From: a virus
Virus record (IMG/VR): IMGVR_UViG_3300046804_000075
Coordinates: 1 to 26,204 of that record
Reading direction: 5' to 3' (one strand)
DNA length: 26,204 nucleotides
Part shown: piece after piece, positions 3,413-15,487 of the stretch
Position numbering within the stretch: the stretch's first letter is position 1
How the letters are laid out: the number at the start of each line of letters is the position of its first letter
Translations under genes and position numbers: made by a program
Notes under the pieces: model-generated
Told to the model about the DNA's origin: nothing
Databases searched by the model: none
The model's input: the letters and a program-made list of their open reading frames with translations, nothing else

Positions 3413-4009
3413 TCAGCCCTCGTAAAGAATGTTAACGCCACCGTTAGCGTCAAAAGTATCTGTACCACTAACTGTGGTAATGCGAACCATATCTAGCGTA
3501 CCAGCAAGTGTTTTTGTGCCAGAGATGGAATTTGCGCCCACTAACGATGTGGCTATGATTCCGTTTGCAACCCACGCATTACTGCCGATCAGCGAAAATG
3601 TTACCGCGCCATACGCAGCCGTTGCAGCAGTCAACCCGCCATACATATCAAAACCTGCTGTAAACGATTGCACTGTAGGGGATGATGCTGCATTGATAGT
3701 TGTACCTACGTATCCCGAAGTTTCAACTGCACCGCCAGTACCCAACCTAAACCGAAGGGTAGATGTGCTGTTAAGACTTAAACCATTAAACATTACTGTA
3801 ATTCGCTTTACCCATGATGGAATGCTGGTAAAGTCAATGCTAGTGCCGCCAGTAGTCGTAATTACAGTGCTTGCTTTTAGTTGACCATACGCGCCGGTAG
3901 ACGTGACGTTAAACTGCGTTGTGCCATTGCTTTGAAGGGCTAGATCGCCGCTGGTGTCAGCAGTCTGGATATAGCCCGTTGAGGTGGATGCATTCAGAGT
4001 AACAGCCAT
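3413..4009 (-). CDS. Tail fibre/tip protein, paralogue of the gene at 4154-4726
   Basis: A 198-residue beta-rich protein. From about residue 50 on it aligns with the 190-aa protein two genes upstream. Both contain TTGGTSIDFTSIPSWVKRIT followed by VMFNG, both have a GSNAW/TSNTW element, and both end DTFD-NGG-NILYE. The N-terminal 45 residues differ (here STSTGYIQTADTSGDLALQS), so the pair share a C-terminal domain on different attachment segments. Known family context: the IPSWVKRIT element recurs in phage fibre and tip proteins. A receptor-binding role is inferred from position and composition. Confidence 0.68.
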   Translation of the reverse strand: MAVTLNASTSTGYIQTADTSGDLALQSNGTTQFNVTSTGAYGQLKASTVITTTGGTSIDFTSIPSWVKRITVMFNGLSLNSTSTLRFRLGTGGAVETSGYVGTTINAASSPTVQSFTAGFDMYGGLTAATAAYGAVTFSLIGSNAWVANGIIATSLVGANSISGTKTLAGTLDMVRITTVSGTDTFDANGGVNILYEG

Positions 4010-4153: not shown

Positions 4154-4726
4154 TTACTCGTAAAGGATGTTAATGCCGCCATTAACGTCAAAAGTGTCTG
4201 TACTAGTAGACGTAATTCTAATTTGCGTCAATGTGTCAGATAGGGTTTTAGCGCCAGAACTAGAAATAGTGTTTCCTACTCCGTCATTAAAGTTGCCGCC
4301 CTCTACCCAAGTGTTTGACGTTACCAAACAAATCTGCATGACTCCTTGATAACTTCTGGCCGCAGTTCCAGCAGAAATTAAAAAACCTGAAGTACTTGAT
4401 GCGGTACTTACAGTGCTAGCTGCAAGCGTGGACAGGCTTACATAACTTGTATTTTCAATTCCTCCAGCATCACCAAGTTGAATTAAAAACGACGCGGTTG
4501 AAGATAAAGACACACCATTAAACATCACCGTAATTCGTTTTACCCAAGACGGTATACTAGTAAAGTCAATACTAGTGCCACCGGTGGTAGTAACTACTGT
4601 ACCCGACACAATAGGGGCCAACGTACCTGTGGTCGCAACCAGCGTTTGTGTATTCGATCCTGCAACCGCAGGGGCTGACACTGTAATCGATCCGCTGGTG
4701 TCACCTGAAAGAACTAAAGAAGACAT
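4154..4726 (-). CDS. Tail fibre/tip protein, paralogue of the gene at 3413-4009
   Basis: A 190-residue beta-rich protein with an N-terminal segment LVLSGDTSGSITVSAPAVAG, a common module in phage fibres. The shared domain follows: TTGGTSIDFTSIPSWVKRIT, then VMFNGVSL, and an ending DTFDVNGGINILYE. The domain is clearly homologous to that of the 198-aa gene downstream while the middle regions have diverged. The two genes are separated only by the 43-aa gene, consistent with a local duplication followed by divergence. Confidence 0.68.
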   Translation of the reverse strand: MSSLVLSGDTSGSITVSAPAVAGSNTQTLVATTGTLAPIVSGTVVTTTGGTSIDFTSIPSWVKRITVMFNGVSLSSTASFLIQLGDAGGIENTSYVSLSTLAASTVSTASSTSGFLISAGTAARSYQGVMQICLVTSNTWVEGGNFNDGVGNTISSSGAKTLSDTLTQIRITSTSTDTFDVNGGINILYE

Positions 4727-4740
4727 AATTTATCCTTGTA

Positions 4741-5628
4741 TCAAAGTACAACCCACCGAGCGCCGGACGAGACGGTGACAATCACCGCAGCAGTAATCGT
4801 CGTAGATGATACCGACTGCGAAGCGCTGACTGTGTACGTACCCGCGCCACCAGTGGCCGTGCCCAACGCCGTGATTGTTGTGCCGGCAGTCACGCCTGAT
4901 CCGGTGATGACCGAGCCTACACCCAAAGCGCCGGTGGTAACCGACGCAATCGTCAACGTCGTGCCTGCAATACTACCGGTGCCGCTAAAGCCCGCGCCCA
5001 GCGTGATTGGGCCGGTTGACATGGCGTTCTTGGTTGACGGGATTGTATAGCTGATCGTGACCGTCTGGTCATTTTCATAGAAGACTTCGTCTGGCCCACC
5101 ACCTGTGGCTCCCGCACCGCCCACTTGGCCCCAAGAGCTGTTGGAGTAGCCCTCAAAGACATCCAGCGTGGTGTTGTAGCGGAACATACCTTCGGCAGGC
5201 GTTGCAGGCCGGTCGGTCGTAGCCCCTGAAGGCACTTGAACATAGCCCGTACCGGAGAAGGTCACATCCAGCGTGGCCGATAGGGTCGTGAACGCGCCGG
5301 TGTTAGGCGCCACGTCACCGATGGGAGGCGGTGAGGAGAACGACAGGTTGTCCACAGGCACCAAGATATTGTCCGTGGTGTACTGGGTAATATCGTTCTC
5401 ATCGGTGACGACGAACTTGTACGCAACGGTCGGCTGCAGCCAGATGTTGGCCATGCCGCGCGAATCCAAGATGATTGGGTTCGTGTTGGCTGTCGCGCCA
5501 GCTTGGTCAGTGTAGGTTGCAATCGGCGTCGTCGTGCCGCCGGCGTAGGTGTAGACCTTACCGGCGACCAGCGGATTGCCATTGGCGTCGAAGAACTGCT
5601 GCTTGGGTGTTGGGGTTAGGGATGCCAT
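4741..5628 (-). CDS. Tail fibre protein with tailspike-like N-terminal attachment domain
   Basis: A 295-residue protein. Residues 4-65 ([43 protein letters not shown]) match the N-terminal virion-attachment region of many podoviral tailspikes and fibres. Residues 104-119 carry the fibre motif [16 protein letters not shown]. Residues 128-171 carry a second one, with [18 protein letters not shown] followed by an EGY...WG segment. The C-terminal tip ([20 protein letters not shown], then [14 protein letters not shown]) matches the end of the large fibre at 11404. Here it is split by an inserted glycine-rich domain (residues 214-281). AAGGA precedes the ATG, and the start abuts the stop of the upstream ejection gene. 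It probably attaches to the tail hub. Confidence 0.8.
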
Positions 5629-7764
5629 CTAGTCATTCCTTAATTTATTTCGGTTTTCCGGTGCCAATACATTAACCACCGCGCCTTTACTTTCTTTCGG
5701 AATTATCATCCATTCTTGGGGGTTATTGAGCACACGAAGTATAGTATTGCGCTCAACCGCCGGCATAGTATCCAAAAGCCGCGCCAAATCTTGGCCTGAT
5801 TGAGATGCGCGGGTCAGCTTATCCATGACGGATTTACCCAGCTTTTTCTCTAACGCGGCCAACATGGTGTTGGTAACTGTAGCGGCAGCGCTAAGCAATC
5901 CTGGCGCGCGGGGCATTTTCAGCTCAAGTTTCAATAGTTCGCGCAGCGCTTCTTGACCCGCAGCTGTTTGCTTTGTGACGCTAATATCACGTTTGACTTC
6001 GGCTGCCACGCCTTTAAGTGTCTGCATGGCTTTGGCGCTCAGCTCTTTAGCAATGTCGTAGCTGCCCGCACCGAATACTTTCTCAACTTCTTTCGGGTTG
6101 TTGCCCTCAACTAACTTAATAAAAGCGTTTGGATCGTTTTGATACATTTCCATCGCCCTAGCGCTCAGCTTCTTTTCGCCAACAGCTTTTAAGCCTTGCG
6201 AGTAAGCTTCCAAATACGCGCGGTAACCGGTACCGCCAGCTGCTTCAATTGCGTCTACCAAAATAGGGTTGACGCTTTGGCTAACTTTGGCGGCTAACTC
6301 TTTTTGCGCGGTAGGATCTGCACCGGCTATACGCCGTGCGTTGGCGTTTAAGTTTTTGCGGATTGTATCTACCGCCCACGCATCAATAACGCCGCCGGCG
6401 TTCGTCCACTTAACCAAATCATTTTTGAGCATGGTGAGCAAACGCACCAGATCGCGGTTACCTGGGGCAAGTTTGGGGTCAGCCAACAGATTATCGATGT
6501 AGTTGGTAACTTTTTCAATTTTAAGAGGCTTTAGCCCGTGTGCTTCAAGGCTGTTAGCCGCAGCTGTTGCAAACCGCGATGCCTCACCAAATATAAGCGA
6601 ACCAGCCGCCGCGTCGTCCGCTACTTGTTCGGCGCGTTTGGCTAGTTCACCTTCATAGGTGTAGCGCCCCGGCACAGGCCGACCACGCTCGGCAGCACCG
6701 CGTTCGCTACCGGCTTTAGCTAGTCGTTCTGCCGCTGGTGCCATACGGCGTACATCCCCAACTTTTTGCTCGGCAACAGTGCCCATACGTTCGGCCTGCG
6801 CGCGTAGTTGCATCCCCAATGTGCCCCCCATATTAGCCGCTGCCATATCAGCTTCTAGTTGGGGCAACAATCTATACCGCAGTTCATTTTTAGCTTCTTT
6901 TTGCGCACCGCGAGCTGCTGCTTGAGACTCACCGCCAGCAAGCTCGGCTAACTTATTTAGCCGGGCGGCTTCTTGCGCTTGGGCAGTGCTCAACACAAAA
7001 CTAGGTTTACGTTCAGCGGCTGCCGCAAGCAGCGCTTGTGTCGTGGGTGAATTAAGCCCAGCAATGGATTGCGCGGCGGTTAAATCACTAGCTGCGCCGC
7101 GTGACTCTTTAATGGCATTTGCCAACGCAACGTCGTCTAGCTTTAATGTGTCACGCAAAATCTTGGCGGCTTTTTGTTGGCCTATTTGGCCTGTCAGCAT
7201 GTCATACAGCTTGCCAACACCGCTAGATCCTGCCTGCAGCAACTTGTCTACGTAAGGCGCAGCAACCTGACCGCCCGCTTCAAAAATAGCGCCCATCAGC
7301 AGATCGCGAGTGCCAGCGGCCAAACCTTCGCCAGTCGTCATGGCAGGTTCGTTGCCTAGCGCAATATCTGCTTGGCGTAACAACCCTCTAGCGGCTCCGT
7401 ACCCTCCAGCGGAACCCATAACTGCGCCTAGAGGCCCTGCGGGGGCACCAAACGCGCCTCCAGCTAAAGCGCCTCCAACTTCTATGAGCGGCCCCGTTAA
7501 TTCGCGTGTTTCACTAGCAATGTTATACGCAAAAGGATATTCTTTTGCCCACGCAGGAGGTTGCCGGCGAGGGCCGGGCACTTCGCTAGTCACCGGTTCA
7601 GGTGCAGGTGGGGCTGCCGGCTCGTCAGTTATCCACTTACCGCCAATAAGGTAGGCTTTCTTACCTTCTGCGTTAGTGGCCGTCTCTGTAATCGGCAACC
7701 ACTTACCGTCAACGAACGCAGCCTGTTCGCCGGTCTTAGGGTTGGTTGCGGTTTCGATCGCCAT
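5629..7764 (-). CDS. Internal virion / DNA ejection-type protein (711 aa)
   Basis: A 711-residue, mostly helical, Ala-rich protein. The N-terminus has two tandem copies of a short unit (residues 5-26 and 28-47: ATNPKTGEQ...GKWLPIT and ATNAEGKKA...GGKWITD), a tag often seen at the start of phage internal proteins. A Pro-rich linker (49-70) follows, then a Gly/Ala hydrophobic stretch (about 90-135) that could insert into membranes. The rest is long helices. No catalytic motif of a transglycosylase or peptidase is evident. Size, composition and position between tail and fibre genes fit the ejection proteins of P22-like phages (the gp7/gp20/gp16 class). Homology to a particular one is not claimed. 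Confidence 0.65.
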   Translation of the reverse strand: MAIETATNPKTGEQAAFVDGKWLPITETATNAEGKKAYLIGGKWITDEPAAPPAPEPVTSEVPGPRRQPPAWAKEYPFAYNIASETRELTGPLIEVGGALAGGAFGAPAGPLGAVMGSAGGYGAARGLLRQADIALGNEPAMTTGEGLAAGTRDLLMGAIFEAGGQVAAPYVDKLLQAGSSGVGKLYDMLTGQIGQQKAAKILRDTLKLDDVALANAIKESRGAASDLTAAQSIAGLNSPTTQALLAAAAERKPSFVLSTAQAQEAARLNKLAELAGGESQAAARGAQKEAKNELRYRLLPQLEADMAAANMGGTLGMQLRAQAERMGTVAEQKVGDVRRMAPAAERLAKAGSERGAAERGRPVPGRYTYEGELAKRAEQVADDAAAGSLIFGEASRFATAAANSLEAHGLKPLKIEKVTNYIDNLLADPKLAPGNRDLVRLLTMLKNDLVKWTNAGGVIDAWAVDTIRKNLNANARRIAGADPTAQKELAAKVSQSVNPILVDAIEAAGGTGYRAYLEAYSQGLKAVGEKKLSARAMEMYQNDPNAFIKLVEGNNPKEVEKVFGAGSYDIAKELSAKAMQTLKGVAAEVKRDISVTKQTAAGQEALRELLKLELKMPRAPGLLSAAATVTNTMLAALEKKLGKSVMDKLTRASQSGQDLARLLDTMPAVERNTILRVLNNPQEWMIIPKESKGAVVNVLAPENRNKLRND

Positions 7765-9836
7765 TATTTATCCCGTACATAACCGGCTGGAGGCTCAACA
7801 GCTCCTGCGCCGCCAACATCAAGTTCAGTGCCTTTTAACGCAAATTGATTCTTGCGTTGTTTCATAAATTTCAAAACAATTTCGCCCGCTGCTTTACGTT
7901 TGTCTGCGGGTAGTCTTGGATTAGCTAAGTCACCTGCAGCGCGTTCGTAAAATTTACGATCCGCTTCCGACTGAGGGCCTTCAAAACGCGGTACAGTCAT
8001 AGTAATCATGGCGGCAATAGGCTCTAAACGGCTAGACGCGATAGAGCCTTCGGTAGCATAACCAAAAAACTCCGCCCCCACGTCAGCAAGTCGGCCCGCA
8101 CCGCTGCCTGTAGATTGATCAATCAAACCGCCGTTTTTGATCATCTCTTCTACATCAGGAATCAGAGACTCTACTGTGCGTAAGGCTTCAGCTTTAGCCT
8201 GCTCTTGTTTAATCAGCGCAGGGCTACGCTTACCTGCGTTAGGTATAGACCTAATAACTTGCCCCCGCGCATTAAAATGCGTAACGGTGCCATTATCGTC
8301 AACTTGGGTGTTGGCAATTTGATTGGGTTTATCAGCCAACAAATAGTATTGATTTTTCTGTATGCCCTCAAGAACTTTTGCATGACGCGCGTTTTCTTTT
8401 GCAATATCTGCTTGGCGGTTTTCGCTTCGCAACGCAATGTTTTCCATAAACTTTCGGTGCTCGAGATCCGCTTGCAAGCGATCACTATCCAACTTACGTT
8501 TTGCAGCCGCCGCAGGGCTATGTTCTGCTTGCGCCAATTCTGCCAATTTGCGGCGGCCTTCTGGGGTGCCTCTTAATAGATTTACTACTGCAGACGATAT
8601 GCCAGGAATTCCGTAAGTTACTTCAACGGGAGGAAGCGAAGCAATTTCAGCTTCCGCAGCCTTTTCTGGCGTTGGCGCAGCTTCAGGGCGCGCTACATTT
8701 CTACCAAAACCTTGCGCTTCAACCATGCGCGGCGCAACGGCAGTTGATTCAGCTGTTGAAGCTGTTGCTGGTGCAATAGCAGGTTCAGGTGCGGGTGAGG
8801 AAGCAGCGCCTTGTTTAGATAAATAATCGGCTTTAAATTCCGAGTACGGCATTGCGTACTTACCGGTCATTGAGGTTTCAAGCGTGTACTCGTCAAACGC
8901 AGCACGAATATCTTTTTCGCGGCGTTCTTCTGCTTTTTGGCGCGTTTCTATAATCTTTTCGCCCGTCAAACCCATCAGCGTACCAGCGTAACCCTCTGGG
9001 TCTCGTCCATACGCATCAAGATGCTGTTGTAATGCTGCTTCATAAGGCATGAATTTTTTAGCTTCTGCACCCAATATAGGGTGCTCGTACATAGCCTTTA
9101 GGCGCTGCGTAACTTGCGCGCGCCCAACATTTTTATCTACAGTAGAAATAAACGCGGGGTTATAGACGCTATTAAACCCAGTTAAACTGCGGTCTAATTC
9201 TTTAGCTTCAACTTCGCCGCTCTCTTTGCGAACACCTAGCTGAGCTTTTTTAATATCTGACTCAGCAGTCAACGCTTCTTTTGCTGGCAGCAAGTTAGTC
9301 AACACGTTACTTCTAAACTGCGCCATATCGGTATCGGGGCCGGTTGCGTGAAGCTGCCCCAACATATCGTCGCCTTCTTCTCGGTTAATTTCGCCGGTAC
9401 GTATGCCGCGTTCAATCAAACTTACGGCGCTTTGGTAGTCTTTAGCACTAGCAATCTTGCGCAAACCAAACTCACGTTTAAGTTGGCGCTGTTCAAATTC
9501 ATGTTTAAGTGTTTTTTGTCTGCGCTCTTCTTCCGCTGCTTCACCTAATTTTTGCTTTTCGTAGCCTGCCGCAAGATCTGCATAGCGGCGCGGGGCACGG
9601 GCAGCTACTTCAGCAAAAAATTCAGCCGATCCATATTTAAGCTTTGGGTTGCGTATGATTTGCGCTAACTCGTTGCTTTCTTGTTGCTGTTGCTGATACT
9701 CTTGCATCTTCAACGCATTCATCTGCGCCGCTTCTTGCAGCCCGCGCAACTGCATGGCTTGTGTCATAGCGTTCATCGGCGATTCAAGCTGAATCGGTTT
9801 AAACTGCCCTGGGATGGTGTAATCGATACCGGCCAT
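7764..9836 (-). CDS. Internal virion / DNA ejection-type protein (690 aa)
   Basis: A 690-residue, helix-rich and highly charged protein. The N-terminus (MAGIDYTIPGQFKPIQ) runs into a coiled coil over about residues 24-60 with a run of five glutamines. A second coiled coil spans about 92-130 (EEERRQKTLKHEFEQRQLKR). Pro/Ala/Glu-rich low-complexity linkers occupy the middle (about 340-400), and a longer helical segment lies near 430-500. No enzyme motif seen. It overlaps the next gene as TAATG. Layout and length match the large coiled-coil ejection proteins of short-tailed phages, which are released into the periplasm to extend the tail. Confidence 0.65.
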   Translation of the reverse strand: MAGIDYTIPGQFKPIQLESPMNAMTQAMQLRGLQEAAQMNALKMQEYQQQQQESNELAQIIRNPKLKYGSAEFFAEVAARAPRRYADLAAGYEKQKLGEAAEEERRQKTLKHEFEQRQLKREFGLRKIASAKDYQSAVSLIERGIRTGEINREEGDDMLGQLHATGPDTDMAQFRSNVLTNLLPAKEALTAESDIKKAQLGVRKESGEVEAKELDRSLTGFNSVYNPAFISTVDKNVGRAQVTQRLKAMYEHPILGAEAKKFMPYEAALQQHLDAYGRDPEGYAGTLMGLTGEKIIETRQKAEERREKDIRAAFDEYTLETSMTGKYAMPYSEFKADYLSKQGAASSPAPEPAIAPATASTAESTAVAPRMVEAQGFGRNVARPEAAPTPEKAAEAEIASLPPVEVTYGIPGISSAVVNLLRGTPEGRRKLAELAQAEHSPAAAAKRKLDSDRLQADLEHRKFMENIALRSENRQADIAKENARHAKVLEGIQKNQYYLLADKPNQIANTQVDDNGTVTHFNARGQVIRSIPNAGKRSPALIKQEQAKAEALRTVESLIPDVEEMIKNGGLIDQSTGSGAGRLADVGAEFFGYATEGSIASSRLEPIAAMITMTVPRFEGPQSEADRKFYERAAGDLANPRLPADKRKAAGEIVLKFMKQRKNQFALKGTELDVGGAGAVEPPAGYVRDK

Positions 9837-9839
9837 AAG

Positions 9840-10553
9840 TTATCTCTCAGGGTTAACGTCAAAGGGAAACGGATTGCCTGGCATACCTAACGGCGATGCT
9901 CCACTTGGCTGTTGTTGCGGGAAAAATTTACGCATCCAGTCTTGATTTTGCTGATAATTCAGATATTGACCAATTCCGCCTGTCAAGGCATTTGCCCCGC
10001 CCATATAGCTAGACGCGCGGATGTTGCCTTGATTTATGGCGTTTTGAGCCAACGCTTGGCCGTACTGCCCTGCTTGATTAGCCATAGTCGCTGCGTTAGT
10101 CTGCCCCATGCCGGCAAGACTTTGCAGTGGGTTCAGACGAGCCGCGCGTTCCGCTTGATAGCGGTTAAATGCGTTGGTGTATTCTTGTGACGCCAAGTCT
10201 TGCCCAAACTGAGTGACGCCGCGCAGCTGATTGCCTGACAACAAACCACCGCGTGCGGCGGCTGAACGATCCAGCGCTTTCAAACCTTCACGCATACGGA
10301 ACGCATAACCGGGGTCTTGCTGAAACTGCTCCATACTAAACGGTGTGTAGCGGGAAGCAGCGACCAGCTCAGGTAGCGCATTAACGCCTGCTTGACGGAA
10401 CGGTTCTTGCAATTCAACTTGTTTATTGAACATGCGCTCCTGCGCAGCAGTTGCGCGGTCAGAAGCTTTTGATTGTTCTCTAGCTGCTTGTCCGCTGGCT
10501 ATACCGCCAATAACGGCGCTGCCGGCGATTGCTGCTGCTGTCCATCCAGACAT
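9840..10553 (-). CDS. DNA transfer / ejection-type virion protein (237 aa)
   Basis: A 237-residue protein. The N-terminus has a hydrophobic Gly/Ala helix (residues 5-22), then a coiled coil (24-50). It then has the conserved-looking block DPGYAFRMREGLKALDRSAA followed by RGGLLSGNQL and DLASQEYTNAFNRYQAERAA. From memory, this block recurs in phage proteins annotated as DNA transfer or virion-associated. The C-terminus is Gln/Asn-rich with a Pro/Gly tail. The start at 10553 is fixed by AGGAG (10561-10565) and lies 55 nt inside the cupin-SET gene. With the two following genes it forms a likely three-protein ejection set as in P22. Confidence 0.72.
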   Translation of the reverse strand: MSGWTAAAIAGSAVIGGIASGQAAREQSKASDRATAAQERMFNKQVELQEPFRQAGVNALPELVAASRYTPFSMEQFQQDPGYAFRMREGLKALDRSAAARGGLLSGNQLRGVTQFGQDLASQEYTNAFNRYQAERAARLNPLQSLAGMGQTNAATMANQAGQYGQALAQNAINQGNIRASSYMGGANALTGGIGQYLNYQQNQDWMRKFFPQQQPSGASPLGMPGNPFPFDVNPER

Positions 10554-11419
10554 AATGTTTCTCCTGATAAATAAAGCCCAAAATTTACGCGCATAGAGGC
10601 TCTATAATCTACAAAAAGTTCGTTACCAACGGGTATATCTTTTAACGCTATAGCGTAAATATCATCACCAAACTTGTACGGTGTTACATTGGCATCGTGC
10701 GAATGGTTAATGTACCGCCCTGCTGGGGTACGCTTACCATCTAATCGGCCTGGGCAAATAACTTCACCTGCAAAAAAGTGCCGCGTTGCAAACATCCCAA
10801 TACCATGCACCGGCGACGCCTTTAGCTCTACGTCGTGCCCTTCCGGCATATCAATCAAATCGCTTTCAATGGTCACTATGGCGTCCATTGTGTCTTGGTC
10901 TACCCCTAACTGCTCTAAAAACAGTTGGTAGTCCGCTTGCGCTGATTCAATTGCCAACCGTCTGCGCGTATCACCTAATCCGCATTCGGGCACTACATAC
11001 AACCGATCTTCAATAACACTCAAATCCTGGCAGTCGTCTGGGTTAGGGTAAATGTCCACCCACACCACTTCATCTTCAAACACCCGCCCGGCGCGCTGCT
11101 CACCTGCCTTGGCGTCAAACTCACAGGGTGCTGTCAGTACCACCACTTCGGTGTCAATATTGACAGCTATTGTGCCTTTTTCCAGCCGCACGCGGTAGTC
11201 CGTTTTGTGCGCTGCGCCCGTCAATACTGTCCACGGCGGCACGATAATCTTTCGTTCGTACACCCCCGGCAAAAACGTATGCACGGTGACAATGTCGGCT
11301 TGTGGCATTTGCAGCAATTCATCTTGCAGCGCAACGACTTTTTGCCGCATTACCTCTGGCGTAACCACCGCCGTGCTGTCAGGATCAAATAGCTCAACCG
11401 CGTTCACGCTACCACCCAT
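10499..11419 (-). CDS. Cupin-SET fusion, predicted protein lysine methyltransferase
   Basis: A 306-residue two-domain protein. Residues about 45-125 look like a cupin barrel (HTFLPGVYERKIIVPPWTVL, then AAHKTDYRVRLEKGTIAV with His71 as a possible metal ligand). Residues about 197-275 carry the SET hallmarks in order: ASPVHGIGMFATRHFFAGEV (SAM-binding N motif), GRYINHSHDANV (the NHS..N motif) and ALKDIPVGNELFVDY (final Tyr). SET enzymes transfer methyl from SAM to protein lysines. No post-SET cysteines are present. The start is ATG 11419; GTG 11407, overlapping the fibre stop as GTGA, is a real alternative. It lies between the fibre and ejection genes, so virion association is possible. Substrate unknown. 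Confidence 0.82.
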   Translation of the reverse strand: MGGSVNAVELFDPDSTAVVTPEVMRQKVVALQDELLQMPQADIVTVHTFLPGVYERKIIVPPWTVLTGAAHKTDYRVRLEKGTIAVNIDTEVVVLTAPCEFDAKAGEQRAGRVFEDEVVWVDIYPNPDDCQDLSVIEDRLYVVPECGLGDTRRRLAIESAQADYQLFLEQLGVDQDTMDAIVTIESDLIDMPEGHDVELKASPVHGIGMFATRHFFAGEVICPGRLDGKRTPAGRYINHSHDANVTPYKFGDDIYAIALKDIPVGNELFVDYRASMRVNFGLYLSGETLCLDGQQQQSPAAPLLAV

Positions 11420-14061
11420 CGTGACCCACTGGCCACCGTTACCGTTACGCCACTTGCCACCGTAATTGGCCCCGCCGACATGCCGGACGTGCCCGTGGCA
11501 ATCGTGTAGCTGGTGTTAATAGTTAAATTATTGACAAATATGCCATTAGATGCCACTACTGCCGTGGATGTTAATTCACCCGTACTAGGTTTGTATAGTA
11601 GTTTTGCATTGCTGGTATAGATCGTCGACAGGGTGCCAGACGTTGCCGCTGCAAACGTCGGGTAGACATTCGTCGATGTCGAGGTGTCGTTTGTAATGGT
11701 GGCGCCTGAACTACCGGCGACAGCCCATTTAAGACCGGTAGTCTGGGTGGAATCCGCTTGTAATACCAGTCCATCAGCGCCCACCGGCAGGCGAACATTG
11801 TCCGTGCCATCAAACGCAATTAAATCGCCCTTAGTAGACGCGGGCGACAAGGCGTCAAAAGCCGCAACTTTAGTTGTTTGGCCCGTACCACCGTTTGCTA
11901 TAGCAACTGTTCCGGTGACGTTGCTGGCTGTACCCGTGGTGTTTTGATTCAGGGTCGGCACGTCTGCTGCTTGGATAGCCGACATGACCACGTTGGTGCC
12001 ATTACCGCGCAGATACTGGCCCGAAGTGACCGCACCTGCAAACGCGTTCATAGCCGCCTGAGCTGTTGTTTGGCCTGATCCGCCGTTGGCGATTGCTACC
12101 GTACCCGTCACATTTGACGCGGTGCCTGTAGTGTTTTGGTTTAACGTCGGTATATCGGCTGCAACAATGGCCCTAAATGTTGGCACGCCCGCCAAACCGT
12201 TAGGTGCTGCTAAGACAAAGTTAGCTGTTTTACTAGCGTACGGGTTTTGCGTGTCGCCATATCCTGTTGCCAAACTGATAGCGGGTGTTGCGCCGCCGGA
12301 AGACACTACAGGTGAAGTACCGGTAACCGAAGTAACCGTGCCGGATGTAGGAGTGTAAGCCTCCCATGCTGTGCCGCCCGCGTTTACGCGGATAGATTGC
12401 CCGGCAGTACCAGTAACCGTTGTATAGGTGTTTGCGGTATTAGCTACCGGCACAGATAGAGCGGCAATACTAGTTAAACCCGTACCTCCTTTAGTAACGC
12501 CGATAGTAGTGGCATTCCATGTGCCAGTGCCTACGGTGCCTAAAGTCGTAAGGTTAGTCGATCCAGCCCAAGTAGATAACGCTGTGTTTTCTACATTGCC
12601 TAACCCAACATCCGTTTTTGTAACTGTAGACCAAGCCGGCGCGGCGCTAACAACGCCTGTGCCCGTTTGAGACAGAAACTGTTTTGTCGTGCTTGTATTA
12701 CCTGCTAACCGTACTGCGTTAGTTCCATCGTGGTATTCAGTATCGCCAAGCGTTGACATTGGCGTAAGCGCATTAAAAGCCGCCGTTTTGGTTGTCTGCC
12801 CCGTGCCGCCATTTGCAATAGCAACTGTTCCAGTGACGTTTGACGCTGTGCCAGTAGTGTTCTGATTCAAGGTCGGCACGTCCGCTGCTTGAATAGCAGA
12901 CATGACCACGTTAGTGCCATTACCGCGCAAATACGAGCCTGAAGTAACAGCTCCGGCAAGAGCGTTAAGCGCTGTTTGCTGAGTAGTTTGCCCTGTACCT
13001 CCATTTGCAATAGCGACAGTACCCGTTACATTGCTAGCTGTGCCAGTAGTGTTTTGATTCAGCGTAGGTATATCCGTTGCAACAATTGCACGGAAAGTTG
13101 GCACTCCAGCTACACCATTAGGAGCCGCTAAAAAGAACTTGGCGGTTTTGCTAGCATAAGGATTCTGCGTGTCGCCGTAGCCGGACGCCAAGCTGATGGC
13201 CGGTGTCAAGCCACCGCTAGACACTACCGGCGACGTGCCGGTCACTGAGCTAACGTAGGACAGCGCAGGAATGTCAGCTGTCACCAGCGAACGGAAGGTC
13301 GGCACGCCTGTTGAGCCATTAGGCGAGGCAAATACCAAATTAGCCGTTTGGCTGGCCCACGCGCCGGTCAGCGTACCGCTGCCGGTGACCGGCGAGCCTG
13401 TGACCGTGAACTGCGCAGGCAACGACAGGCCGACTGACGTCACCGTACCGCCAGGGTTGGACGAGTCAATCGTTACCGTACCGACACCCTGTGTGATGGT
13501 GATATTGGTGCCGGCTACCAGAGACTTGTACTCTAGCCCGCTAGCGCCGCTATTAACGCCGAGCAGTTGATTGGCCGTGCCTATAGACGACAAGCCCGTA
13601 CCGCCGGCAGCCGTTGCCACCGTGCCGGTCAGCTTGGATGCTGCAAGCGAAGTAATCCAAGTTGGATCCGCATACGAGCCTGTTGTATAGACGCCGTTGG
13701 TGACCGTGGCAGCATTGCCGGTAATGTCGATACCCCAAGTGCCTGACGCGCCGGATCCCGTTGTGCTAGGCACATCAAGGTTAGTGCGGGCGCCTGCGGC
13801 AGTAGTGGCTCCCGTGCCGCCATTGGCGACATTTAGTGTGCCGGCCATCGTAATGGTGCCAGACGTCGTTACAGGGCCGCCTGACGTCGTCAAGCCCGTT
13901 GTGCCGCCGGAAACATCAACCGACGTGACTGTGCCAGAGCCTGTCCGGTTAAGCAGATTTAGAAAAAATCGATACCAATCACGCGCAACAAGCCCCGTCC
14001 GGTCGTCAATAATTGGCGACTGGTTCTTGGGTAGTTGCGGCTCGTTATCTGGGTTAGGCAT
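11404..14061 (-). CDS. Large repetitive tail fibre protein
   Basis: An 885-residue protein. The N-terminus (PNPDNEPQLPKNQSPIIDD, RDWYRFFLNLLNRTG) fits a short virion-attachment helix. It is followed by beta-repeat modules such as GTVTSVDVSGGTTGL and LNVANGGTGATTAAGARTNL, well known from phage fibres. Four copies of a roughly 32-residue unit (PTLNQNTTGTASNVTGTVAI, then ANGGTGQTT) occur. Residues 272-440 and 578-746 are a near-identical long duplication. The C-terminal tip (YTIATGTSGMSAGPITVASG, then SGSRWVVA) is shared with the 295-aa fibre. No intramolecular chaperone (S74) domain is seen. It overlaps the upstream gp10-like gene by 8 nt and is the likely main receptor-binding fibre. Confidence 0.85.
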   Translation of the reverse strand: MPNPDNEPQLPKNQSPIIDDRTGLVARDWYRFFLNLLNRTGSGTVTSVDVSGGTTGLTTSGGPVTTSGTITMAGTLNVANGGTGATTAAGARTNLDVPSTTGSGASGTWGIDITGNAATVTNGVYTTGSYADPTWITSLAASKLTGTVATAAGGTGLSSIGTANQLLGVNSGASGLEYKSLVAGTNITITQGVGTVTIDSSNPGGTVTSVGLSLPAQFTVTGSPVTGSGTLTGAWASQTANLVFASPNGSTGVPTFRSLVTADIPALSYVSSVTGTSPVVSSGGLTPAISLASGYGDTQNPYASKTAKFFLAAPNGVAGVPTFRAIVATDIPTLNQNTTGTASNVTGTVAIANGGTGQTTQQTALNALAGAVTSGSYLRGNGTNVVMSAIQAADVPTLNQNTTGTASNVTGTVAIANGGTGQTTKTAAFNALTPMSTLGDTEYHDGTNAVRLAGNTSTTKQFLSQTGTGVVSAAPAWSTVTKTDVGLGNVENTALSTWAGSTNLTTLGTVGTGTWNATTIGVTKGGTGLTSIAALSVPVANTANTYTTVTGTAGQSIRVNAGGTAWEAYTPTSGTVTSVTGTSPVVSSGGATPAISLATGYGDTQNPYASKTANFVLAAPNGLAGVPTFRAIVAADIPTLNQNTTGTASNVTGTVAIANGGSGQTTAQAAMNAFAGAVTSGQYLRGNGTNVVMSAIQAADVPTLNQNTTGTASNVTGTVAIANGGTGQTTKVAAFDALSPASTKGDLIAFDGTDNVRLPVGADGLVLQADSTQTTGLKWAVAGSSGATITNDTSTSTNVYPTFAAATSGTLSTIYTSNAKLLYKPSTGELTSTAVVASNGIFVNNLTINTSYTIATGTSGMSAGPITVASGVTVTVASGSRWVVA
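11824..12330 (-). repeat. Downstream copy of a 507-bp internal duplication in the tail fibre gene
   Basis: Encodes fibre residues 578-746. It aligns without gaps to residues 272-440 encoded at 12742-13248, with about 17 differences in 169 residues by eye. The DNA has diverged more than the protein, mostly at third codon positions, so the duplication is old or partly re-homogenised. Confidence 0.8.
12742..13248 (-). repeat. Upstream copy of the 507-bp internal duplication
   Basis: Encodes fibre residues 272-440. The partner copy is at 11824-12330, offset by 918 bp. Each copy itself contains two of the 32-residue NQNTTGTASNVTGTVAIANG units. Confidence 0.8.
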
Positions 14062-15487
14062 TGGTGCCGGACAATACTAACTCGGCGCCCATGATGGCAA
14101 TCTTGACGGGGTCGGTGCCGGACACCTCGTAGACGCGGTCGCGCAGCTTATCAGTCATACCCAGACGGCGCCAGAAAGCACGATAGCCGTAGTTGCCGAT
14201 CTTGCCCATGCCCGTCCAGTGTTCGTTTGACCAGGTGTGGCCACCATCATCAGACCAGCGCATCATGACTTGCGGGTCGTCGCCTTGGCCAGTCACAATA
14301 CCCACGCCTGTCTCGCATTCCAGCTGCAAGGTGTGCTGGGCGGTACGTTTCAAGTTGTTCTGGCCGGTAAGTAACGCCCGCCATGACCGCAACCACTTTT
14401 GCGGCAGCGTGTCGTCAGCAAACACGTCCAAGTCATACGCGTAAATTTTGCCGTTTTCGAAGTCGCCGACGACAACCTCGTTATTAAAGAACATCTGGCA
14501 GTTTGCTCGATGACGGATAAATTGACCGTTGGCAAAGCCGGCGCGCTCATGCCAGGCTTGGGTAGCCATGTCGAACACCCACGTCTTTTGGGCGGTCGGG
14601 AAAGTCAGCACATAGAACGAATGACCGTCCTGCTGGTACGTAAAGCCAATCGCGTCTGAGATCGTGCCATAGCTCTGAATGGCATACTCGACCGCATGAG
14701 TCGAAATGCGCTGGCCGGAGTAGCCTTGCGCACGAAACACGATGCCTTGGCCACGGGCGTCAGCCCCAAGCCAGAACAGCGAGTTGTCCATCTTGGCAAC
14801 CGAGTAAGTCGCAGCGCACCCCAGTTCGTTGACCGCACCCTGAATGCGAGCCAGCGGAAAAGGCGTCGTGCCGGCGTCGTACCAGACCTCAACGGACTGC
14901 GTGCCGAACAGCCACACCTCGCGGTGATCAACGAACAGCGACACCAGATTGTCCGGCATACCTTCGGCACTGGCAAAACTCAGTGGGTCAATCTGGGTGC
15001 CGTCAAGCAGCTCAGATGTCCAGAAACGGTCTGAATCAGGCTCCTGAAAGATGAAGTAACCATCCAGATAGCCGACTGTTACCGCACCTGGGAAGTCTAC
15101 GTCGGTAATCTTGGCATACGCTTCGGTTGATGCATCGTAGATGTAGCCGTCAGGGTTAGCGGCGATGAAGAGCTGCGTGCCGTTGTCGACCATCGACACA
15201 GGGCCGCTGCCGGAAACGGCACCGATAGGTGTGACCGTCCAGTTGGTGTCGATGCGATACAGACGGGCGCCTGACACGGCATAGCCGTAATTACCGTAAG
15301 CCCACAGGCCACGGATGGGGCCAGTACCGACAGTTGCTAGCTTACGCAAGCCTGGCGCCCGGTTCAGGTAGGCCGGCTCGTTACCCTCTGGCGCTGGAGT
15401 CGCTTCAGGGTACAAGTTGACCATGCGGCTGTCAGCAGCGTTGACGCTGCGAGCCACATAGGATTGGCCTAAGATCGGCGTTTTCAC
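14054..15487 (-). CDS. P22 gp10-like packaged DNA stabilisation / tail hub protein
   Basis: A 477-residue protein, close to the length of P22 gp10 (about 472). The N-terminus (ILGQSYVARSVNAADSRMVN, then LYPE) and PAYLNRAPGLRKLATVGTG are typical of this family, as are repeated blade-like beta segments (RGLWAYGNYGYAVSGARLYR, FIAANPDGYIYD, FWLGADARGQGIVFRA). An RWSDDGGHTWSNEHW region lies near the C-terminus. In P22, gp10 forms the hub below gp4 that seals the packaged head and holds the tailspikes and needle. It lies directly downstream of the gp4-like gene, in the expected order, and overlaps the fibre gene by 8 nt. Confidence 0.92.
   Translation of the reverse strand: MKTPILGQSYVARSVNAADSRMVNLYPEATPAPEGNEPAYLNRAPGLRKLATVGTGPIRGLWAYGNYGYAVSGARLYRIDTNWTVTPIGAVSGSGPVSMVDNGTQLFIAANPDGYIYDASTEAYAKITDVDFPGAVTVGYLDGYFIFQEPDSDRFWTSELLDGTQIDPLSFASAEGMPDNLVSLFVDHREVWLFGTQSVEVWYDAGTTPFPLARIQGAVNELGCAATYSVAKMDNSLFWLGADARGQGIVFRAQGYSGQRISTHAVEYAIQSYGTISDAIGFTYQQDGHSFYVLTFPTAQKTWVFDMATQAWHERAGFANGQFIRHRANCQMFFNNEVVVGDFENGKIYAYDLDVFADDTLPQKWLRSWRALLTGQNNLKRTAQHTLQLECETGVGIVTGQGDDPQVMMRWSDDGGHTWSNEHWTGMGKIGNYGYRAFWRRLGMTDKLRDRVYEVSGTDPVKIAIMGAELVLSGTNA

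Follow-up and report, generated by a model that had tools for sequence, protein, structure and literature searches.

Why would a bacteriophage encode a SET domain, and why among the genes for its tail and ejection proteins? SET methyltransferases are known mainly from chromatin biology, where they mark histones in our own cells, and to our knowledge bacterial hosts have no H3. The question is raised by one gene in the window, by which we mean the whole 26,204-nucleotide stretch analysed here (positions 1 to 26,204 of IMG/VR record IMGVR_UViG_3300046804_000075). A first-pass annotation had described at 10499-11419 a cupin-SET fusion, predicted it to be a lysine methyltransferase and set it between a fibre gene and the genes for three ejection proteins. 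The open reading frame is present on the minus strand and encodes 306 amino acids. Its neighbourhood reads as follows.

5629..7764, minus strand: third putative ejection or internal virion protein, so called by position only; 6.8% Lys
7764..9836, minus strand: second putative ejection or internal virion protein, so called by position; phrog_33352, of unknown function; 6.8% Lys
9840..10553, minus strand: downstream ejection-protein gene; phrog_598 'DNA ejection', 7e-41
10499..11419, minus strand: cupin-SET fusion gene; open reading frame of 306 aa from ATG 11419
11404..14061, minus strand: upstream fibre-like gene, 885 aa, so called from the earlier annotation and its repeat-rich sequence only; its stop overlaps the GTG discussed below
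14054..15487, minus strand: P22 gp10-like packaged-DNA stabilisation or head closure protein; PF11134 5e-15, phrog_578

The real start of the fusion gene is probably the GTG at 11407, which would give a 302-aa protein; we favour this codon because several close homologues have an ATG at or next to it. Read from the sequence, such a start would form a GTGA overlap with the stop codon of the fibre gene. The 3' end overlaps the next gene by 55 bp, and the final ~15 residues lack conservation and have a low pLDDT. The PHROGs profile phrog_34170 matches residues 24-279 (4e-34), a full-length match. No Pfam match was obtained for the 885-aa fibre-like protein, and the third putative ejection protein (5629..7764) has no family match in Pfam or PHROGs. 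Within the fusion we distinguish the following parts.

10988..11302, minus strand: cupin-like beta-barrel, residues ~40-144 (phrog_12032, phrog_24280; AlphaFold2 and VIA)
10874..10972, minus strand: pre-SET helical region, residues ~150-182 (model helices 151-171 and 175-182)
10574..10852, minus strand: SET domain, residues ~190-282 (PF00856; VIA match to 7u5v)
10787..10816, minus strand: SET-N motif SPVHGIGMFA with the GxG, residues 202-211 (S202, G206 and G208 in 61/61)
10700..10747, minus strand: R-x4-RT-x2-GR motif running into NHS, residues 225-240, in the place of SET-I (conservation in 61 sequences)
10604..10621, minus strand: SET-C motif E-x3-DY, residues 267-272, with the predicted catalytic Y272 (E267 in 61/61, Y272 in 60/60)

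Is the C-terminal part a genuine SET domain? The three motifs on which the first-pass annotation had relied were all located, SPVHGIGMFA at residues 202-211, RYINHSHDANV at 235-245 and ALKDIPVGNELFVDY at 258-272. The Pfam profile PF00856 scores 40.1 bits against a cut-off of 22.4, and with an E-value of 5.3e-10 the SET match is therefore well above chance. An AlphaFold2 model built on the 61-sequence alignment has a mean pLDDT of 86.9 (ten-residue blocks of 91-98 in the barrel and ~95-97 in the SET domain); its pTM is 0.62, so the placing of barrel and SET relative to each other is less certain. The model predicts a cupin-type barrel at residues 40-144 and a SET fold at 190-282, as had been supposed, and both match solved structures. 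In VIA-align, run against Foldseek's PDB matches, the SET model aligns with the SET domain of MLL1 with SAH (7u5v) at Z 10.7 and rmsd 1.6 over 78 residues with 33% identity; the SET domains of EZH2 and SET8 give similar scores, the range with MLL1 being Z 9.6-10.8. A profile search of PDB sequences returned MLL1 at 3.5e-10 and PBCV-1 vSET at 1.2e-6. In common with MLL1/KMT2A, EZH2 and SET8, the phage domain has the fold, the GxG, the NHS and the catalytic Tyr; no pre-SET or post-SET zinc clusters were seen in it. A D-Y....G pattern in the pre-SET region is also found in stand-alone SET proteins. A chance motif match was considered and is ruled out by the Pfam score, the AlphaFold2 model and the structural matches.

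Would such a domain be active? Conservation was assessed in 61 fused proteins, 26-91% identical to the window protein. Ser202, Gly206, Gly208, Asn238, His239, Asn244 and Glu267 are invariant in all 61, and Tyr272 is found in each of the 60 rows that reach its column, the one other row being truncated. The residue after Asn-His is Ser in 43 sequences, Ala in 17 and Thr in one. The invariant GxG, Asn-His, Tyr272 and their companions are the residues with which SET enzymes bind SAM and carry out catalysis. Where it could be estimated, dN/dS in the SET region is ~0.06-0.17, a sign of strong purifying selection. Because the residues of the SAM site and of catalysis do not vary at ~30% identity and dN/dS is low, the fusion is likely to be an active SAM-dependent methyltransferase of the SET type, a prediction drawn from conservation and from the model. 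The points on which the SET call might have foundered came out in its favour: the match is above threshold, the fold resembles those of MLL1, EZH2 and SET8, and the Asn-His and Tyr positions are invariant in homologues. A pseudogene or random fusion is ruled out by the low dN/dS and by the occurrence of the fusion in 253 loci.

Which side chain would be methylated? The SET-I segment is absent from 61 of 61 sequences, the NHS following the first SET segment through a short loop. Columns 221-226, where the YxG tyrosine would be expected, are free of aromatic residues in all 61. Position 270, two residues before the catalytic Tyr and the Phe/Tyr switch position of SET enzymes, is Val, Ile or Leu. 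Without SET-I, and with neither the YxG tyrosine nor an aromatic residue at the switch, the phage domain differs from MLL1/KMT2A, EZH2 and SET8, and its acceptor channel would therefore be unlike that of the histone enzymes. An R-x4-RT-x2-GR motif is conserved in these proteins (R225 in 59/61, R230 in 60/61, T231, G234 and R235 in 61/61), and the phage SET reads as a reduced form with this motif instead of SET-I. Since the part of the domain that forms the lysine channel has been rewritten, lysine is only the presumed acceptor; of the original label 'lysine methyltransferase', the SET-type SAM-dependent methyltransferase is likely and the lysine specificity presumptive. The reduced active site offers a natural minimal SET enzyme.

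The cupin-like barrel claimed for the N-terminus is borne out as a fold, but its metal ligands are lost. It aligns with cupin structures (double-stranded beta-helix fold) at Z 10.7 (4e2g) and 10.3 (DddK). Position 75 is His in 39 sequences, Tyr in 19 and Gln in 3, position 77 is Asn, Val or Ile, and there is no HxH. No Pfam family, cupin families included, matches the N-terminal part. A metal-dependent cupin enzyme was also considered and is ruled out, since the ligands of HxH...E and of the second motif are unconserved. The profiles that do match are PHROG 12032, 'short tail fiber protein' (3e-21), and PHROG 24280, 'tail fiber adhesin' (6e-15); these names are annotation labels, and the function they suggest is putative. 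In the literature searched we found no virion mass spectrometry for proteins of either family. Their members (PHA00672 in VvAW1 and VPMS1) share with the window protein the N-terminal barrel and the slot before the ejection gene, but at 143-176 aa they lack the SET domain. In BFVD, the best matches from viruses come from phages and align over the barrel region; one of them is named 'SET domain containing protein'.

How widespread is the fusion? Far from being a one-off, it belongs to a widespread existing family, PHROG 34170, which has the same cupin-SET architecture and no assigned function. Scans of IMG/VR for relatives yielded 185 in one and at least 461 in another. Among the loci examined, barrel and SET are fused in 253, and a phrog_598-like ejection gene touches or overlaps the fusion in 235 of them (230 adjacent, 5 overlapping by open-frame limits); these are counts of loci, not of independent genomes, because some contigs entered twice from different scans. 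As for the slot between a fibre and three ejection proteins, its first ejection gene is a phrog_598 member and the slot is kept in 235 of the 253, whereas the other two ejection proteins are assigned by position only. The SET-bearing phages, which are short-tailed, form a large and mostly freshwater group. Its cultured members include Rhodoferax phage P26218 and Pseudoalteromonas phage PH1; Manatee Spring phages and phage zth2-2 also carry the fusion.

Does the slot belong to the enzyme or to the barrel? Phages of Vibrio, Shewanella, Thalassomonas and Dickeya have only the barrel, immediately preceding the ejection-protein position, and in the Krylovirinae a SET-less barrel is flanked by the genes for tail tubular protein B and for an internal virion protein. 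A Paraburkholderia ferrariae prophage (L179) encodes barrel and SET in adjacent genes whose ends overlap. In viral contig L229 the SET (4899-5402) and the barrel (5396-5821) are likewise separate, overlapping genes, with their order reversed, and still lie ahead of an ejection-like gene; the L229 SET frame lacks an ATG, which leaves its start codon uncertain. A Comamonadaceae contig (L178) has the SET alone in the slot by the ejection gene. Along the barrel tree the SET was gained or lost at least 3-5 times: five changes were counted, of which three are forced by well-supported branches. The tree giving five left out three 'SET-less' rows cut by contig ends and two long-branch rows; before these five rows were removed, nine gains or losses were counted. 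Because the barrel alone fills the slot, and barrel and SET occur as adjacent separate genes in either order, we conclude that the slot is the barrel's own and that the SET is an accessory module travelling with it.

The Krylovirinae barrel gene (L180, L182) lies at the position of T7 gene 13 (L185, 3808-4224), an equivalence of position only: T7 gp13 (PF11090) fills the equivalent slot in T7, and no family link between it and the barrel was found. Stand-alone SET genes also occur outside the ejection slot. One of the same subfamily (L242, 1490-1912) lies just before terminase-like and portal-like genes, and cyanophage P-SSM7 has one of 99 aa (L184, 2983-3282) immediately after nrdB; related proteins occur in P-RSM6 and Pelagibacter phage Kolga. 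The family of the latter, PHROG 28741 (P-SSM7, Kolga), resembles the SET of the window in being a small phage SET with an RTP-x-G...NHS motif, and differs from the fusion in having no barrel and in lying outside the virion module.

What, then, would the fusion do? We lean, with somewhat better than even confidence, towards a late-made two-domain protein in which the barrel of the slot is joined to a reduced, catalytically intact SET enzyme that methylates proteins at the tail or ejection apparatus. The protein would be made together with the late virion proteins. Its cupin-like barrel, as a structural module of the slot between tail or fibre and ejection genes, may anchor the enzyme to the assembling tail or ejection apparatus. 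The SET domain would take SAM through the GxG and Asn-His, and Tyr272 would serve to pass the methyl group on to side chains of proteins, with lysines the likeliest. With the barrel holding the enzyme at the assembling apparatus, the first substrates would probably be virion proteins of the same module; candidates among them are the second and third downstream proteins, both Lys-rich. The fusion may also travel in the virion and, once ejected, act on a host protein. That fused, barrel-only and separate-gene arrangements share one slot fits this reading; that SET also occurs outside the slot (L242; P-SSM7 near nrdB), and that the acceptor channel departs from that of the histone enzymes, run counter to it. 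The first ejection protein, adjacent to the fusion, is poor in Lys, and a comparison of SET-bearing with SET-less phages found no invariant lysine in it, which argues against this protein as a universal target. Its position 92 (K92) holds Lys in 53 of 105 rows with the fusion versus 1 of 11 SET-less rows, a weak difference confounded by ancestry.

Might the protein be aimed at the host from the outset? Packaged and ejected with the DNA, it would methylate a host protein, for example one of the nucleoid or of transcription, early in infection, as vSET acts on algal H3. PBCV-1 is reported to package vSET in its virion; the enzyme trimethylates H3K27, and there is circumstantial evidence that host transcription is inhibited (PMC7019647). 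A delivered effector would also fit the adjoining ejection-protein gene, seen in 235 of 253 loci, and a SET that comes and goes as an accessory of the barrel, in the manner of effectors. The late-operon position, however, suits assembly equally well, and we regard delivery as possible but rather unlikely. Like the phage domain, vSET (A612L; PDB 1n3j and others) is a small viral SET, to which the profile match noted above refers; it differs in being a stand-alone protein of 119 aa from an algal virus, acting on histones and having no cupin barrel. A bolder proposal we consider unlikely: that the fusion is to phages what vSET is to PBCV-1, a SET enzyme carried in the virion, its acceptor channel rewritten, that would enter the bacterium with the DNA, methylate a bacterial protein for takeover and be widespread in P22-like podoviruses.

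Alternatively, the domain might have lost lysine methylation and become a tail binding or scaffold module, possibly holding SAM or a peptide without turnover. That SET-I has disappeared together with the YxG tyrosine and the aromatic switch, and that an invariant Arg/Thr/Gly motif stands in their place, would agree with such a change, as would a partner barrel of structural type. It is doubtful all the same, since the catalytic Tyr, GxG and Asn-His are invariant across very divergent copies, beyond purely structural need. Very improbable is a late methyltransferase outside the virion, modifying a cytosolic host or phage protein and merely sharing an operon with virion genes: stand-alone SET copies do exist away from virion genes (P-SSM7), but here the SET is fused or adjacent to a barrel that keeps its slot in 235 of 253 loci and in three gene arrangements.

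Returning to the preferred reading of a methyltransferase at the tail or ejection apparatus, the presence of a shortened but intact-looking SET beside ejection genes suggests that phages, too, probably methylate proteins. SET domains in viruses are already known, the cupin-SET family already stands in PHROGs without a function, and isolated records are named SET; ORF62 of Ps15 is listed as a SET protein, without study, in a phage paper (PMC9025141). We found no functional study of a phage cupin-SET or SET protein in the open-access literature that was searched. What appears to be new here is the joining of a reduced SET enzyme to a barrel of the phage tail module. Protein methylation by phages has hardly been studied, and here a conserved SET module, repeatedly gained and lost, adjoins the ejection genes.

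Several minor observations concern annotation and the rest of the window. At L083 (MW202557.1, 3809-5231) the cupin-SET gene is unannotated, and an opposite-strand open reading frame ending at its start is labelled 'contryphan-vn-tryptophan', likely a misannotation. The 885-aa fibre-like protein (11404-14061, minus strand) contains internal repeats, NQNTTGTASNVTGTVAIANGGTGQTT, and has a GPIT..SGVTVTVASG.RWVV-like C-terminal ending in common with a 295-aa protein at 4741-5628 on the minus strand. The neighbouring paralogues at 3413-4009 and 4154-4726, also on the minus strand, share TTGGTSIDFTSIPSWVKRITVMFNG and a C-terminal DTFD-NGG-NILYE motif, and are probably duplicated receptor-binding or tail-tip proteins.
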